From Schlesneria paludicola DSM 18645 (lineage in GTDB: Bacteria; Planctomycetota; Planctomycetia; Planctomycetales; Planctomycetaceae), in the NCBI GenBank assembly GCA_945869955.1, contig CAMBQP010000041.1, positions 1 through 33,794 of the forward strand: DNA of 33,794 nt. Direction: 5' to 3'. The notes beneath the pieces were generated by a model. That model did no database searches. It saw nothing but the letters and a program-made list of their open reading frames with translations, and was not told where the DNA came from. Every line of letters starts with the position of its first letter. Within the stretch, counting starts at the first letter, position 1. Of this stretch, positions 14,130-20,720 are shown piece after piece. Made by a program: the position numbers and the translations under genes.

Positions 14130-14280
14130 TTTTGCGGGGCGCGCCCTCAAGACGCTCTGATGATCGACGGAATCGCACAAATCGACTACCTTTTCAGGGG
14201 AGTCCACTTAGGGGCGTCCTTGTATGAATCCGATCCCTCACGTGAATGTTTACTGTGTTCTCGATTCTCGAAAGTTGACA

Positions 14281-15237
14281 ATGAGATCTTCACTCCGATT
14301 TTTGCTGCTGACCGTTTCATTGACTGCTGCAGCGCAGGTGACTCACACTAGTCGAGCCGATGTGATCGAGTTAAAAACAGGGCACAAACTTGAGGGGGAT
14401 GTGCTCAAGCAGCAGGCGGATACCTTGTATGTTGATATTGGAATCGATGTGATCAAAGTTCCGCTGAACCAGATTAAATCGCGAACGGCGGCGAAAGATT
14501 CGGCCGTTGTCACGGATCAGGCTCAGAAACATCAGCTCTACCGGACCGCCCAACTTCCCCGCCGTAGCATCAAGGACTTGACCGAGAAATTCGGTGAAGG
14601 GGTTGTTCTGGTCCAGACACCGGGAGGACTCGGCTCCGGCTTCATTGTGAACGAAAATGGATTTTGCGTCACGAATTACCACGTCGTGGAAAAAGAGACC
14701 CGGATTGCAACCACTATTTTTCATCGTGGGGAAGATGGATCTTTCAACCGCCGCCGGATCGATGATGTGCGGATCGTGGCACTCAATCCCTTTTTTGATC
14801 TGGCACTGCTGCAGATCCCCGTGCAGAAGGATTTGACGTTTAAGCCAACTTTCCTTGCCGCCGACGATGATCTGCAGGAAGGGGAGGAAGTGTTTGCGAT
14901 TGGGAATCCTCTCGGGCTGGAACGATCCGTTTCCCAGGGAATTATTGGGACCAAGAATCGCAATTTTCGCGGACAGGTCTATATTCAAACTACGGCAGAA
15001 ATTAATCCTGGCAACAGTGGTGGTCCGCTGTTCAACGCCAAGGGGGAAGTGATTGGGGTGACGAACATGAAGTTACTGTTTGCTGAGGGACTTGGGTTTG
15101 CCATTCCGACCCCCTATTTGAAGCTGTTCCTCGATAACCACGAGGCGTTTGCATTTGATCGAAACAACCCAAACTCGGGATTCCGCTACCTGGATCCACC
15201 ACGTCGTAAAACGATCGGTGCGATCAAGGACGAGTGA
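14281..15237 (+). CDS. Exported trypsin-like serine protease (HtrA/S1C type, no PDZ)
   Basis: 318 residues from the ATG at 14281, chosen because it begins a good signal peptide ([20 protein letters not shown]); an upstream in-frame ATG at 14224 would bury it. Residues 27-68 form a small strand-rich domain ([15 protein letters not shown], then VIKVPLNQI) common at the N-terminus of planctomycete exported proteins. The protease domain has the full triad: His 134 in TNYHVV, Asp 173 in FFDLALL and Ser 246 in NPGNSGGPL, in the DegP/HtrA style. No PDZ domain follows; the protein ends about 70 residues after the serine. It should cleave unfolded or specific proteins in the periplasm. It lies 151 bases after the cytochrome c' gene. 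Confidence 0.88.
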
Positions 15238-15418
15238 GGGTGAGCAAATTTGCTGGTTTTGACCGTTGTTGGAATGGGAAAAATTTGCGAAGATAGAAAT
15301 CGATGCCGCTCGGCATCAGTGCTCGTGTCATCGTCTGCGGCGGTCACGATTCGAAATCGCTCGTTACCTTTCATTCACAGATCATGTACAGAAATTTCTT
15401 AAGGGATTGGACTCACTC

Positions 15419-17125
15419 ATGAATCGACTTTGGCTCCGTTCATCCGCTCTCGTTTTTTGTCTTGCCCACGTTTTTGTGGTGACGACATCGAGTTTTGCCG
15501 CCGAGAAAACGGCCGGCGAAGCATGGCTTCCCAGAGAGACCCTTGTTTTCTTTTCGATTGGGAACGTTCCAGAATTCAAGCAAAAATATGACAAAAGCTC
15601 GATGGGTGAGCTGTTACGCGAACCCCAGTTGAAACCATTCCTCAGCGACATGGAAAAGAAATTTGACGAAGCGTCGGCGGAAATGGAGAAAGAGGTTGGG
15701 GTTTCCCTGATGGAGTTAGTGGGATTACCGCAGGGAGATTTGACCTTTGCACTCGTGGAAAAACCCGCGCAGAAGCTCGCGATTGTGCTGGCTCTCGAAT
15801 TTGGCGAGAGCAAAGCGACCATGGACAAGCTCTTGAAAAAGATGGATGAAGCGCTCGAAAAAGAGCAGGCCGAGCACACCACGGAAGAGATCAACAAAGT
15901 CAACATTCAGATTTACACGTTGAAAAACCCAGAACCGGATAATCCCTTCAAAACCATTACCTACTTCACCACCAACACGCATTTTGTCATGAGCACCGAA
16001 CTGGAAGCCCTGAAGGATGTGGTTGAACGCTGGGATGGCAACAGTACTGACAATCTCGCGATCAATGATCAGTTCAAGTACATCCAGTCTCAGTGCAAGG
16101 TGGAAAGTGGTGATCCGCTGGTGAAATGGTACGTGAACCCGATTGGACTAATCCAGTCTGGTATCTCGATGGCTCAAACTCAGTTTCCTCAAGCCGGTAT
16201 GGCCGCCGGATTTCTGCCCCTGTTCGGCGTCGATGGCTGGAAGGGTTGGGGAGGTTCGATGGACCTCGATGAAGGGGAATTTGAAGCCGTTTCAAACTCG
16301 TTCGTGTATGCAGACAACCCTCGCGGAGTGCTGGGTCTGTTTCTGTTCCCCGCCGATCAACTCGCCCCACCCAAATGGGTTCCTGCTGAGATCGGAACTT
16401 ACATGGCGGCCAATTGGAGTATCCTGGGTGCTTATACTTCGATCGAAAGCATGGTCGACTCGTTTCAGGGTCGAGGCGCCACCGCCCGCTTTCTGGATTC
16501 AGTCGCGGATCAAGGTCCGATGATCCACCCGAAGAAGGACCTGATCGACCACATGGATGGACGAATCCATCTGCTGCAGTCTGAGTTAAAGGAAACCGGA
16601 GAGGGTGCTCCACCGACGCCTCAGGTAATGGTTGCCTTTGGCCTGAAAGACGCAGAGAAAATGAAGAAGACGCTGGCTCAAGCGGCAAAATCTGGTAATG
16701 CCAATCTAGAGACTCGTGAGTTTAATGGAGAAACGATCTACGAATTTGGCTCGCCCGACAATGATCAGCTGATGGCCATGGTGGTGACGGCTGGTCAGTT
16801 GGTCGTTACCAACGATACCCCCCTGCTGCAAGGGATGATGCGAGGCGAATCGAGTCGAACTTCCCTGGTTGACTCGGACGATTACAAAAAGATTGCGAAA
16901 TTCTTCCCATCGAAAACATCAATGCTCTCGTTCCAGCGGAGCGACACGCAGATGAAGACCTATTACGATCTGCTGAAAAATTCGGACTCGAACTGGGAGG
17001 GAATTGATGTCTCAAAACTTCCCCCTTTCGAAGTGCTCTCGAAGTACTTGCAGCCGAGCGGAGGTTATACTGTTCCCGATAAAAAAGGGGCAAAGTCAGT
17101 TAACTTCTCACTCAAACGCAACTGA
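15419..17125 (+). CDS. Secreted protein, DUF3352-like, function unknown
   Basis: 568 residues from the ATG at 15419, which begins a clear signal peptide (MNRLWLRSSALVFCLAHVFV, cut near SSFAA); AAGGGA lies about 12 bases upstream. The frame opens further upstream at 15266 but that part is not protein-like. The mature protein is acidic, with a helix-rich early part (SDMEKKFDEASAEMEKEVGV) and repeated strand-helix units such as LPRETLVFFSIGNVPEFKQ, LTFALVEKPAQKLAIVLALEF and VMVAFGLKDAEKMKKTL. This is the layout of secreted planctomycete proteins resembling DUF3352, in which similar half-domains repeat. No catalytic motif was recognised. A strong terminator follows the gene, so it ends a transcript. 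The family assignment is tentative. Confidence 0.75.
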   Translation: MNRLWLRSSALVFCLAHVFVVTTSSFAAEKTAGEAWLPRETLVFFSIGNVPEFKQKYDKSSMGELLREPQLKPFLSDMEKKFDEASAEMEKEVGVSLMELVGLPQGDLTFALVEKPAQKLAIVLALEFGESKATMDKLLKKMDEALEKEQAEHTTEEINKVNIQIYTLKNPEPDNPFKTITYFTTNTHFVMSTELEALKDVVERWDGNSTDNLAINDQFKYIQSQCKVESGDPLVKWYVNPIGLIQSGISMAQTQFPQAGMAAGFLPLFGVDGWKGWGGSMDLDEGEFEAVSNSFVYADNPRGVLGLFLFPADQLAPPKWVPAEIGTYMAANWSILGAYTSIESMVDSFQGRGATARFLDSVADQGPMIHPKKDLIDHMDGRIHLLQSELKETGEGAPPTPQVMVAFGLKDAEKMKKTLAQAAKSGNANLETREFNGETIYEFGSPDNDQLMAMVVTAGQLVVTNDTPLLQGMMRGESSRTSLVDSDDYKKIAKFFPSKTSMLSFQRSDTQMKTYYDLLKNSDSNWEGIDVSKLPPFEVLSKYLQPSGGYTVPDKKGAKSVNFSLKRN

Positions 17126-17210: not shown

Positions 17211-18425
17211 GTGAAGCCGGAATCATCGCGATCAGTACCGTCGCGGTTCGTCTTCATCGATGGACTTCGTGGCTTGGCAGCACTCTCGATCGTTCTGTTT
17301 CATCTCTGGTGGTACGAGCCCAATCCAACGTCGGCCTTTTCCATGGTGGTCCATCTGCCGGTGATCCAACAACTGTTAAGGTGGTATGAGCCCGATCCCG
17401 GAGCGGCAATTTCCCTGACAAATCGCGGCATCGAAGAGGTCATGCTGAAAATCCGGGGAGGAGTGCAGGTTCTACTGGTGATCAGCGGGTTTGTGATCGC
17501 CTACACCTTACGGAACACCTGGATGAATCCGCGAGAAGTCTTACTGTTTCTCGCCAGGCGTCTCGTCCGGCTGGTTCCCGCTTACTGGACGACATTGGGA
17601 GTTGTGATTCTGGTCGACATGGTATCCCAACAGATTGGGGGGCTTCCTTCACCATTTGAAGGGAGCATTTCTCTGGCTCGAATTTCCGCGCATTTGACAT
17701 TCCTCCAGGATATTTTCGGTCATGAATCGTTCAGCGCAGGAATCTGGACCTTGTGCATTGAGATGCAGTTTTATCTGGTGGCGGTGCTCGGCTGGTTGAT
17801 TGCCCAACGAGCGTTTCGTCGTCCGCAGGTGAATGAACCAAGACCATCAGCACGCGCCATTTATTCTGTATTTGCACCGTTCGCCTTCATTTCCTTGTTC
17901 TACTGGCGGGGAATGGACAGCACCGAATCGCTCGTGATTCATTTCCTCTGGATGTTTTTTCTGGGGATGGCAACGTGGTGGACACTGGATGGGACCATTT
18001 CCCTCGTCGCGTTTGGATTGATTGCTGGTATCGCCACGGTGGAATTGGTCCTTTTTGAAAAGAACCAATTTGAGAATCTGGTGGCGCTCAGCACGGCTTT
18101 GGCAATTCTGGTGGCAGGCCGCCAGCAAAAACTGGATCAATGGTTGAATTGGCCTTGGCTGCAATATCTCGGGCGGATTTCCTACAGCCTGTACTTGATT
18201 CATTTTCCCGTGTGTCATCTGCTCGTATCCGCCGGATGGAAGTTTTTTTCCCATTCACCCACCTTAACCCAGGCCATGTTCATCCTCATCGGGTCACTGG
18301 TCGCCAGTCTGTTGGCAGCTCACGCTATGTATCAGCTTGTCGAATTCCCCAGTGCCCGCTGGGCGGCACGCATGAAAAATACAAATGCTGCCCTACCCGT
18401 AGGAAAACCGACTCTGATCGCATAA
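17211..18425 (+). CDS. Membrane acyltransferase, acyltransferase-3 (OafA/YrhL) family
   Basis: 404 residues, starting at a GTG with GGAGGG immediately upstream (17201-17206). The N-terminus has the family signature FIDGLRGLAALSIVLFHLWW, including the FH histidine linked to catalysis. About ten hydrophobic segments follow, with a conserved RRLVRLVPAYW motif after the third. These proteins transfer acyl groups, often acetyl, to extracytoplasmic sugars, lipids or peptidoglycan; the acceptor cannot be told here. The next gene starts 15 to 51 bases downstream, so the two are probably co-transcribed. The terminator just upstream separates it from the preceding gene. Confidence 0.9.
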   Translation: MKPESSRSVPSRFVFIDGLRGLAALSIVLFHLWWYEPNPTSAFSMVVHLPVIQQLLRWYEPDPGAAISLTNRGIEEVMLKIRGGVQVLLVISGFVIAYTLRNTWMNPREVLLFLARRLVRLVPAYWTTLGVVILVDMVSQQIGGLPSPFEGSISLARISAHLTFLQDIFGHESFSAGIWTLCIEMQFYLVAVLGWLIAQRAFRRPQVNEPRPSARAIYSVFAPFAFISLFYWRGMDSTESLVIHFLWMFFLGMATWWTLDGTISLVAFGLIAGIATVELVLFEKNQFENLVALSTALAILVAGRQQKLDQWLNWPWLQYLGRISYSLYLIHFPVCHLLVSAGWKFFSHSPTLTQAMFILIGSLVASLLAAHAMYQLVEFPSARWAARMKNTNAALPVGKPTLIA

Positions 18426-18476
18426 ACTGAGGCGAATGGAATGCCTTTCGTGACACAGGCAAAAGGAGTGAGCTGG

Positions 18477-19628
18477 ATGAGTGGAATGCAGGTGGAATTG
18501 GTTCAAGGGAGACTAGGGATCCAGATCGTTGGCTCCCCCCTTTCCAGGATTGAATCGGCTGGCGACGAATTCTTGAATTGGCTGCGTGAGCTGGGAATCG
18601 ACCAGCACGTCGAAATCGGTGTCGATCGGACTACGGGTCCGCTGATCGCCCAGTTTCAACTTCGCCCTGATTCTGCCGAACAACTGGCACCTGGCTACGA
18701 TACCACCCAGATCTGCCAGAACTTGCATCTCGACACGCAGAATCACTCGAAGGATCTGCTGAAAGAGATTCTGCTGGCGATGCTGATTAGCCCCATCCCG
18801 TTCCAATTTCCTAGCTTTGCTGAACTTTTCGCGTCGGTTCGTATGCGGCAACGAATCGTCGAAGGGGCTCGCAAAACCGCTCTCGCGTTTGCCACATCAG
18901 AAGCAGAACGCCCTGATGATTACTGGAGTTATACCGAGGAGCAAGGCTTTGTTGTTTTGCCTGGAAAATCATTGATTGAAGCGTTGCGGAAAGCGACCCA
19001 GCCCGAACACAGTGGCGCGCTCTATTCATTCTCATGCTATCGAGCGACCGAGTACGTGATCGCGCTCGCGATGGCTCAAGAAGCCGAGGCTTGTCATCCT
19101 GAACTTTTGGAAAAGCTTCAGCGACAGGCCGAGATGCGCGCCATTAAATCGGGAGAGTTTCATCAGGTTTTTTGCTGCGAGTATGGTTCGCGCGCGAACC
19201 CTCTTCCACTGCGTTATTTCGTTCCTGGTGATCGAACCTGGTTTCGTAATCCCGACAGTCATTCATCTGATGCATCCGGTTATGAAGGATCGTGGGTTTT
19301 TTACCTCGGAGATTGCCTATTCACGAATTTCTGGAAGCGTGGTCGAACTTTTAGTCTCACCAGTAAATGCCTCGAGATCTATCATTGGAGGGATGGAACC
19401 TACCGGGATTCTCAAGGTGACTTGAGAATGGATGAATCGATTGTCGAAGCGCAGGTTGAGGCGACTCAGAGGGATCCAGAAAAAGTCAAGCAGATTCTCG
19501 AACGGATGCAACGACTGTATGATCCGGCGGGTGTTTATGCCGAGGGGGGGTGTATCGACATTTCACGCGAATACCCTCGCTGGATTTGTCGTGGGACCAC
19601 AGACATTATCCTTCCAGATGTCCCTTGA
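18477..19628 (+). CDS. Tgl-like protein-glutamine gamma-glutamyltransferase
   Basis: 383 residues from the ATG at 18477, which has GGAG eight bases upstream; an in-frame ATG at 18441 would add 12 residues. No signal peptide. From about residue 104 the protein follows the order of Bacillus subtilis Tgl, the spore-coat transglutaminase, as I recall it: ISPIPFQFPSFAELFASVRM, then QRIVEGARKTALAFAT, a YW-containing segment, KSLIEALRKA, YSFSCYRATEYVIALAMA, then WFRNPD and a WVFYLGDCLF segment. The Cys in YSFSC (Cys 187, codon 19035-19037) aligns with Tgl Cys 116. The acid in WFRNPD would replace catalytic Glu 187 by Asp, and the Glu before the Cys is Ser. Tgl enzymes form glutamine-lysine cross-links. 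The N-terminal 100 residues and the C-terminal 80 are additions; Tgl itself is about 245 residues. No other family explains the pattern. Confidence 0.68.
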   Translation: MSGMQVELVQGRLGIQIVGSPLSRIESAGDEFLNWLRELGIDQHVEIGVDRTTGPLIAQFQLRPDSAEQLAPGYDTTQICQNLHLDTQNHSKDLLKEILLAMLISPIPFQFPSFAELFASVRMRQRIVEGARKTALAFATSEAERPDDYWSYTEEQGFVVLPGKSLIEALRKATQPEHSGALYSFSCYRATEYVIALAMAQEAEACHPELLEKLQRQAEMRAIKSGEFHQVFCCEYGSRANPLPLRYFVPGDRTWFRNPDSHSSDASGYEGSWVFYLGDCLFTNFWKRGRTFSLTSKCLEIYHWRDGTYRDSQGDLRMDESIVEAQVEATQRDPEKVKQILERMQRLYDPAGVYAEGGCIDISREYPRWICRGTTDIILPDVP

Positions 19629-19686: not shown

Positions 19687-20322
19687 ATGAACCAACGTTT
19701 TTTTGCTCTGCTGATTGTTTTCTCTCTCTTTGCCGGAAACGCACCTGCAGCGGAACCAGAAAAAGAGAATTTCATTCCACTTTTTGACGGCAAATCGTTA
19801 GAGGGCTGGGAAAAAGTGGGTAATGAAGCGAGTCTCTGGGAAGTCAAAGAGGGAGCGATTTGTGGCTCTGGCCCGGCATCGATGCTGGTTTGTACCCAGG
19901 GGCCTTACAAAAACTTTCGCTACCGTGCGGAAATCAAGATCAATGATGGTGGAAACTCGGGAATGTATTTCCGTACCACGCGAAAACCGGTTTTCAGTGA
20001 TGGCTATGAAGCCCAAATTGACAGCACCCACAAGGACCCAATCCGCACGGGATCGATCTATAACTTCTGCCATGTCTACAAACGACTGGTCGAACCCGAC
20101 ATGTGGTTCAAATACGAACTTCAGGTGCGCGATGATGTTTGGCGCGGCAAGCCTGTCACCAAGATCAAAGTCACTGTGAATGGAGACGAACTTTACGAAT
20201 ACCACGACTTTGCCCTCAGCTGGAAGGATGGTTATTTTGCGTTTCAGCAACATGATCCCGGGAGCAAAGTGGCGATTCGCAAGGTCGAAGTGATGGTCCT
20301 GGAAGAAACGCCGGCCAAATGA
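19687..20322 (+). CDS. Exported DUF1080 (3-keto-disaccharide hydrolase-like) protein
   Basis: 211 residues from the ATG at 19687, which begins a signal peptide (MNQRFFALLIVFSLFAGNAPAA). The DUF1080 signatures are clear: FIPLFDGKSLEGWEKVG, then LWEVKEGAICGSG, then YRAEIKINDGGNSGMYFR and the late GYFAFQQHDPGSKVAIRKVEV. The fold is a concanavalin-like beta sandwich. The family is expanded in planctomycetes and is annotated as 3-keto-disaccharide hydrolase from a few studied members; sugar binding or cleavage outside the cytoplasm is likely. The stop codon overlaps the start of the cupin gene (ATGA), so the two are translationally coupled. The start has only a weak AAGAAGA site. Confidence 0.92.
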   Translation: MNQRFFALLIVFSLFAGNAPAAEPEKENFIPLFDGKSLEGWEKVGNEASLWEVKEGAICGSGPASMLVCTQGPYKNFRYRAEIKINDGGNSGMYFRTTRKPVFSDGYEAQIDSTHKDPIRTGSIYNFCHVYKRLVEPDMWFKYELQVRDDVWRGKPVTKIKVTVNGDELYEYHDFALSWKDGYFAFQQHDPGSKVAIRKVEVMVLEETPAK

Positions 20323-20720
20323 GTATTCCACCAGCGAAAACCGATGTTCTGCGGAAGACGACGTCTGGCACTGTGCTGGTGCGACACGAAGGGGATGCCC
20401 CGCGCGAGCGAAGTGCGTGTGGCTGGCGGGACCGACTCATCAGTCGCGAAGATGCCGAGCAATCCCCGGCTGCCTGGGCGCACGCAGTCGACATCGACGG
20501 CGCGCGGCCTCACTTTCACAAGCGTTCGACCGAACTGTATTATGTTCTGTCCGGAGCGGGAACGGTCACCGTGGGGGGGATTGAGCATCCGGTTCAGACA
20601 GGGACCATGGTTCATATTCCCGCCGGGGTGATTCATTCCGCCTCGGGGCGGATGCGGGTGCTGGTCATTGGGATTCCGGACATTGCGGACGATGATTATT
20701 TTGAAGTCGCAATCGCCTGA
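20319..20720 (+). CDS. Small cupin-domain protein
   Basis: 133 residues and no signal peptide. A single cupin_2 barrel carries the metal-binding motif 1 (PHFHKRSTELYYVLSGAG, with H-x-H and a downstream Glu) and motif 2 (GTMVHIPAGVIHSA, with the late His). The fold binds a metal and serves as isomerase, dioxygenase or binding protein; the substrate is unknown. The start overlaps the stop of the DUF1080 gene, so the two are likely made together, which may point to a sugar substrate. Confidence 0.88.
   Translation: MSIPPAKTDVLRKTTSGTVLVRHEGDAPRERSACGWRDRLISREDAEQSPAAWAHAVDIDGARPHFHKRSTELYYVLSGAGTVTVGGIEHPVQTGTMVHIPAGVIHSASGRMRVLVIGIPDIADDDYFEVAIA

Follow-up and report, generated by a model that had tools for sequence, protein, structure and literature searches.

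The 33,794-nucleotide stretch of DNA from Schlesneria paludicola analysed here (contig CAMBQP010000041.1, hereafter the window) carries a gene, referred to as TGL, whose product belongs to the family of the Bacillus transglutaminase Tgl. Nearly all tested genomes with this gene family also carry the synthetase (CphA) that makes cyanophycin, a nitrogen-storage polymer, and TGL is therefore likely to act on cyanophycin rather than on spores. The reading favoured here, to which a probability of about one half is given, is that TGL has the Tgl fold and belongs to a long, CphA-co-occurring subfamily, and that it is a cysteine acyl-transfer enzyme, likely cytoplasmic, acting on cyanophycin or its fragments. 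The cyanophycin context of a TGL-fold cysteine protein is new in the literature searched, and it gives a large family, the members of which are mostly named ‘hypothetical protein’, a testable context in cyanophycin metabolism. The initial annotation of this DNA had recognized the relationship to Tgl, and had proposed an unknown target and ‘envelope work’; the latter proposals give way to a connection with cyanophycin synthesis, seen in the co-occurrence with CphA and from shared gene clusters.

Distribution of TGL and co-occurrence with cyanophycin synthetase

A scan of species genomes recovered 80 TGL loci, which by record title belong to Pseudomonadota (66), Planctomycetota (six), Verrucomicrobiota (six) and others (two). 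Likewise, a search at E 0.001 returned 3073 homologues among 7996 scored, and within the best 120, the only ones used, those with an organism name are proteobacterial except for one planctomycete. The family thus extends beyond planctomycetes, and the earlier view of TGL as a planctomycete oddity is not supported. Among 59 planctomycete relatives TGL is found in 13, 12 of which (the window's own genome included) are from the genus of the window. To the question, raised in the initial annotation, of whether planctomycetes form a clade of their own, a tree of 109 rows gives a divided answer: the 13 own-family proteins make up one side of a branch (support 91, not starred), but the planctomycetes as a whole do not group, and require two changes.

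The genomes behind 49 of the 80 loci were tested with the CphA profile TIGR02068 (31 loci left out), and all 49 contain CphA, with 44 matches over the cut-off and five that are long but lower-scoring or split. The association is also apparent where genomes with and without TGL can be compared. CphA is present in 13/13 of the TGL-carrying planctomycete relatives versus 6/46 of those lacking TGL, one of the six being fragmentary. A second sample consists of 220 genomes drawn from the order (probably Burkholderiales) to which the genome with locus L021 belongs; of these, 17 have a long TGL and 82 have CphA (threshold E up to 1e-180), the latter being found in 16 of the 17 genomes with TGL and in 66 of the 203 without. 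As G352, the centre genome of this sample, was picked for having TGL, the count may also be given without it, as 15/16. Fisher's test yields p = 6.7e-9 for the planctomycetes and 6e-7 for the order genomes, values that are uncorrected for kinship. As a control for specificity, six other planctomycetes with a TGL-family match were considered, the proteins of which give at best a weak match to the long-family profile, and only one of these has CphA. The genome of the window itself has a pair of CphA genes in tandem, located on another, short contig (G000:C312:1-5834).

Besides occurring in the same genomes, TGL and CphA-system genes are adjacent in 10 of the 80 loci, in two phyla and in differing gene orders. 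In six proteobacterial loci (L016, L017, L019, L024, L027 and L041) an ABC transporter gene, a DUF1854 gene and TGL follow each other on one strand, with a CphA pair divergent from them. In three loci of Verrucomicrobia (L057, L059 and L061) CphA is followed by TGL on the same strand, facing a run of ABC transporter, DUF1854 and acyltransferase genes, and a fourth (L077), on a contig not long enough to include CphA, has this run as well. The ABC transporter (NF052233) and DUF1854 (NF052234) neighbours, neither of which is homologous to TGL, are labelled as cyanophycin-associated in NCBIfam. The genome G515 (L182) encodes a CphA', CphA and TGL in this order on the same strand, and the last two genes overlap by 4 bp. 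PMC10687191 had already described a cluster in which cphA is present twice, together with an ABC transporter but without cphB. No mention of the term DUF1854 was found in the literature searched. These clusters bear on a quite improbable alternative, namely that TGL is a Bacillus-like transglutaminase that cross-links proteins and shares no more than a lifestyle with CphA: clustering with CphA, ABC and DUF1854 genes in 10/80 loci exceeds what a common lifestyle would explain.

The TGL protein and its predicted active site

The TGL open reading frame (18441-19628, forward strand) encodes 395 amino acids from the ATG at 18441. A second in-frame ATG at 18477, taken as the start in the initial annotation and from which the long form of TGL comprises 383 amino acids (18477..19628), has the sequence AGGAG 8 nt 5' of it and lies about where the consensus of the 213-sequence family alignment begins. 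Residues are numbered below from ATG 18441 unless stated otherwise, so that Cys187 of the initial annotation becomes Cys199. The match to the Pfam family PF20085 (E 5.4e-33; 114.7 bits versus a cut-off of 23.7) covers residues 96-294 (18726..19322) and is far beyond chance. It is the only Pfam match at E<=1, NlpC/P60 not being found, and the same profile is matched at E up to 0.1 by all 60 members of alignment A1. The predicted Tgl fold spans 236 of 242 residues in the comparison with the structures of Tgl from Bacillus subtilis (PDB 4p8i, 4pa5) and Geobacillus stearothermophilus (7c9j), while NlpC/P60 peptidases match TGL much more weakly. The protein is, as judged from profile and predicted fold, a Tgl-fold member of the long TGL subfamily, in line with the family assignment made at the outset.

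TGL shares with the Bacillus and Geobacillus enzymes the Pfam family, the predicted fold and the position of the cysteine. It differs in its genomic setting, which is linked to cyanophycin rather than to sporulation, and in length. The extra residues noted earlier at both ends comprise an N-terminal alpha/beta extension of ~90 residues (about residues 13-102 from Met 18477; 18513..18782), which is not present in Bacillus Tgl, and a longer C-terminal part past the Pfam match (19323..19625), with the invariant residues K309, H315, W316, R317 and R376. No membrane or signal-peptide-like stretch is apparent, the highest 19-residue hydropathy being 1.34, which agrees with the lack of a signal peptide first noted.

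According to PMC6490927, the catalytic dyad of B. subtilis Tgl is Cys116-Glu187, Glu115 can substitute, and His200 is a substrate residue at the back tunnel entrance that is inessential in catalysis. The HMMER alignment to this protein pairs C199 with C116, S198 with E115, D272 with E176, E282 with R185 and S284 with E187. Cys199 (codon 19035..19037) is invariant in 213/213 aligned sequences, the window included, which bears out the conservation expected for this residue, and a cysteine is kept in 12/12 rows of a wider alignment. Of the two outcomes that the initial annotation named as refuting its proposal, a missing structural match and a variable cysteine, neither was encountered. The helper Glu preceding the cysteine is indeed altered, with Ser in 210 and Ala in three of the 213 sequences at the E115 position. 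The suggestion that the catalytic Glu had become the Asp of WFRNPD does not hold, as FRNPD pairs with FKNPE, that is with E176, and the E187 position (in WRGEN) is occupied by Ser284. The latter belongs to an EGS signature (Glu282, Gly283 and Ser284; codons 19284..19292) of which E282 and S284 are each invariant in 213/213. At the position of H200, located by ungapped count, 200 sequences have Phe and the other 13 have Leu. In two planctomycete TGL proteins from outside the subfamily (L094 and L096) the E187 position is occupied by Glu, as in Bacillus.

As Glu282 precedes the position of the lost E187 by two residues, the two positions probably share a face of the strand. This pattern of conservation points to a shift of the catalytic acid by two residues along the strand, and the invariant Glu282 is the predicted relocated acid of the subfamily, which would represent a transglutaminase fold whose active site has been rearranged. 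Two results also speak against the protein cross-linking function considered above: E115 and E187 are both replaced in 213/213 sequences, and the NCBIfam Tgl equivalog PRK03187 scores 40.3 bits against a cut-off of 307. In favour of that function it may be said that, in both sequence and fold, no solved structure is closer than Tgl. For an action on cyanophycin, Cys199 would attack a side-chain amide, probably the arginine-bearing beta-aspartyl amide of the polymer, which resembles the glutamine side-chain amide attacked by transglutaminases. Glu282 would serve as the base, and the acyl group would pass to water or to an amine, which would either trim or cross-link the polymer. At the tunnel-entrance position that Arg185 holds in Tgl, an acidic residue such as Glu282 would suit an arginine-rich substrate.

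The acyltransferase and other flanking genes

Directly upstream of TGL, and on the same strand, the window encodes an AT3-type membrane acyltransferase (17211..18425; PF01757, 81.2 bits versus a cut-off of 31). It ends 15 bp before the ATG at 18441 and 51 bp before that at 18477, and the two genes are likely to be co-transcribed. The initial annotation had pointed to this neighbour, and it proves a meaningful one. The AT3 subfamily of the window adjoins TGL, on either side of it, in 14/80 loci and in 6 of the 13 planctomycete loci (window included), a partial and out-of-place match in L033 being excluded from the counts. There are 10 changes of this neighbour label on the TGL tree. A conserved block of flanking genes is common to the window and to four of the five further planctomycete cases, which were therefore counted together as one event. 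Alignment A4 of the acyltransferases includes 10 of the 14 TGL-adjacent genes (L036, L047, L053 and L080 left out). The AT3 subfamily itself tracks CphA: CphA is found in 24/26 of the order genomes with AT3 versus 58/194 of the others, and an AT3 match below 1e-25 in 15/19 of the planctomycete relatives with CphA versus 0/40 of those without it. One AT3 subfamily likewise gains a cyanophycin context, and its members may, at the membrane, modify some product of that pathway. In two genomes without a long TGL the same subfamily directly adjoins CphA (G572:C1:291207-297082 and G442:C1:77090-80719). One AT3 genome that lacks a full CphA contains a CphA-like match scoring 576 bits, near which there are three further partial ones (G529:C3:78309-95841).

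A tentative and rather doubtful extension of these observations is that AT3 and TGL take part in an undescribed cyanophycin-remodelling system composed of synthetases (often paired), TGL, an acyltransferase and the ABC/DUF1854 proteins. In such a system TGL, with its relocated catalytic Glu, would cut or cross-link the beta-aspartyl side chains of cyanophycin, a membrane acyltransferase (AT3 or NagX-like) would acylate the polymer, and the MsbA-like ABC transporter and the DUF1854 protein would move it out. If true, this would help to explain why so many cyanophycin makers lack a cyanophycinase. Beside TGL, DUF1854 and ABC genes in the Verrucomicrobia loci (L057:9109-10266, L059, L061 and L077), AT3 is replaced by a membrane acyltransferase that is weakly NagX-like (NCBIfam NagX, E 1.3e-28, under its cut-off).

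Within the window, AT3 is preceded by genes for a trypsin-like protease and a DUF3352 protein (14224-17125), and four congener loci retain this block together with AT3 and TGL. TGL is followed on the same strand by genes of the 3-keto-disaccharide hydrolase family and the cupin type (19687-20720), for which no match was found in the congener loci L101-L112.

Counter-evidence and the cyanophycinase question

Several observations weigh against a role of TGL in cyanophycin metabolism. TGL is missing from 66 of the 82 CphA-containing order genomes, and the sole order genome with TGL that has no CphA match is G547, in which TGL is fragmentary. In 56/80 TGL loci neither CphA-system genes nor AT3 were found in the surrounding DNA, although some of these contigs are short, and the CphA regions inspected in planctomycete relatives contain no nearby TGL. 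AT3 is present in only 4/17 of the order genomes with TGL, and AT3 and TGL are therefore not obligate partners. Cyanophycinase-family matches over the cut-off, moreover, are present in 13/13 of the TGL-carrying planctomycete relatives and in 10 of the 49 TGL-carrying genomes checked, while TGL and an above-cut-off cyanophycinase are both missing from 57 of the 82 CphA-containing order genomes. Finally, with E115 and E187 both lost, catalysis could be weak or absent. Given the loss of these known catalytic acids, TGL might be a Tgl-fold protein devoid of activity, with a scaffolding or regulatory role in which it binds cyanophycin or CphA; this is very improbable in view of the cysteine, invariant in both alignments, and of the many other invariant charged residues.

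The cyanophycinases CphB/CphE (TIGR02069; peptidase family S51) likewise occur in cyanophycin-making genomes and possibly act on the same polymer, but are unrelated to TGL as a family; TIGR02069 is absent from the NCBIfam matches of the TGL protein at E up to 1. Most cyanophycin-making beta-proteobacteria are without a recognizable cyanophycinase (2.8% of 903 genomes), as stated in PMC10206079. TGL could accordingly be imagined as a cysteine-type cyanophycinase that hydrolyses the polymer where the serine-type enzyme is missing. This is unlikely, given the 57/82 order genomes and the 13/13 planctomycete relatives just mentioned; cyanophycinase is generally missing from the order genomes, and its absence there is therefore not independent evidence for such a function. 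Since 57/82 genomes lack both genes and a cyanophycinase is present in the TGL-carrying genomes counted above, TGL is at most part of the answer and leaves most of the missing cyanophycinases unexplained, and TGL and AT3 are candidates for the puzzle outlined in PMC10206079 for some of these bacteria only.

A distant family of TGL paralogues (L172-L178 and L180) has proteins of ~400-440 amino acids where complete, with the same EGS signature; C199, E282 and S284 are retained in six of them, and the N-termini of the six copies measured are hydrophobic and signal-peptide-like. This family has 1055 homologues, the named ones mostly from Gallionellaceae and Sulfuricella. Six of the 57 CphA-containing order genomes with neither TGL nor cyanophycinase carry such a paralogue, and the order genomes having the distant paralogue alone (n=6) all contain CphA.
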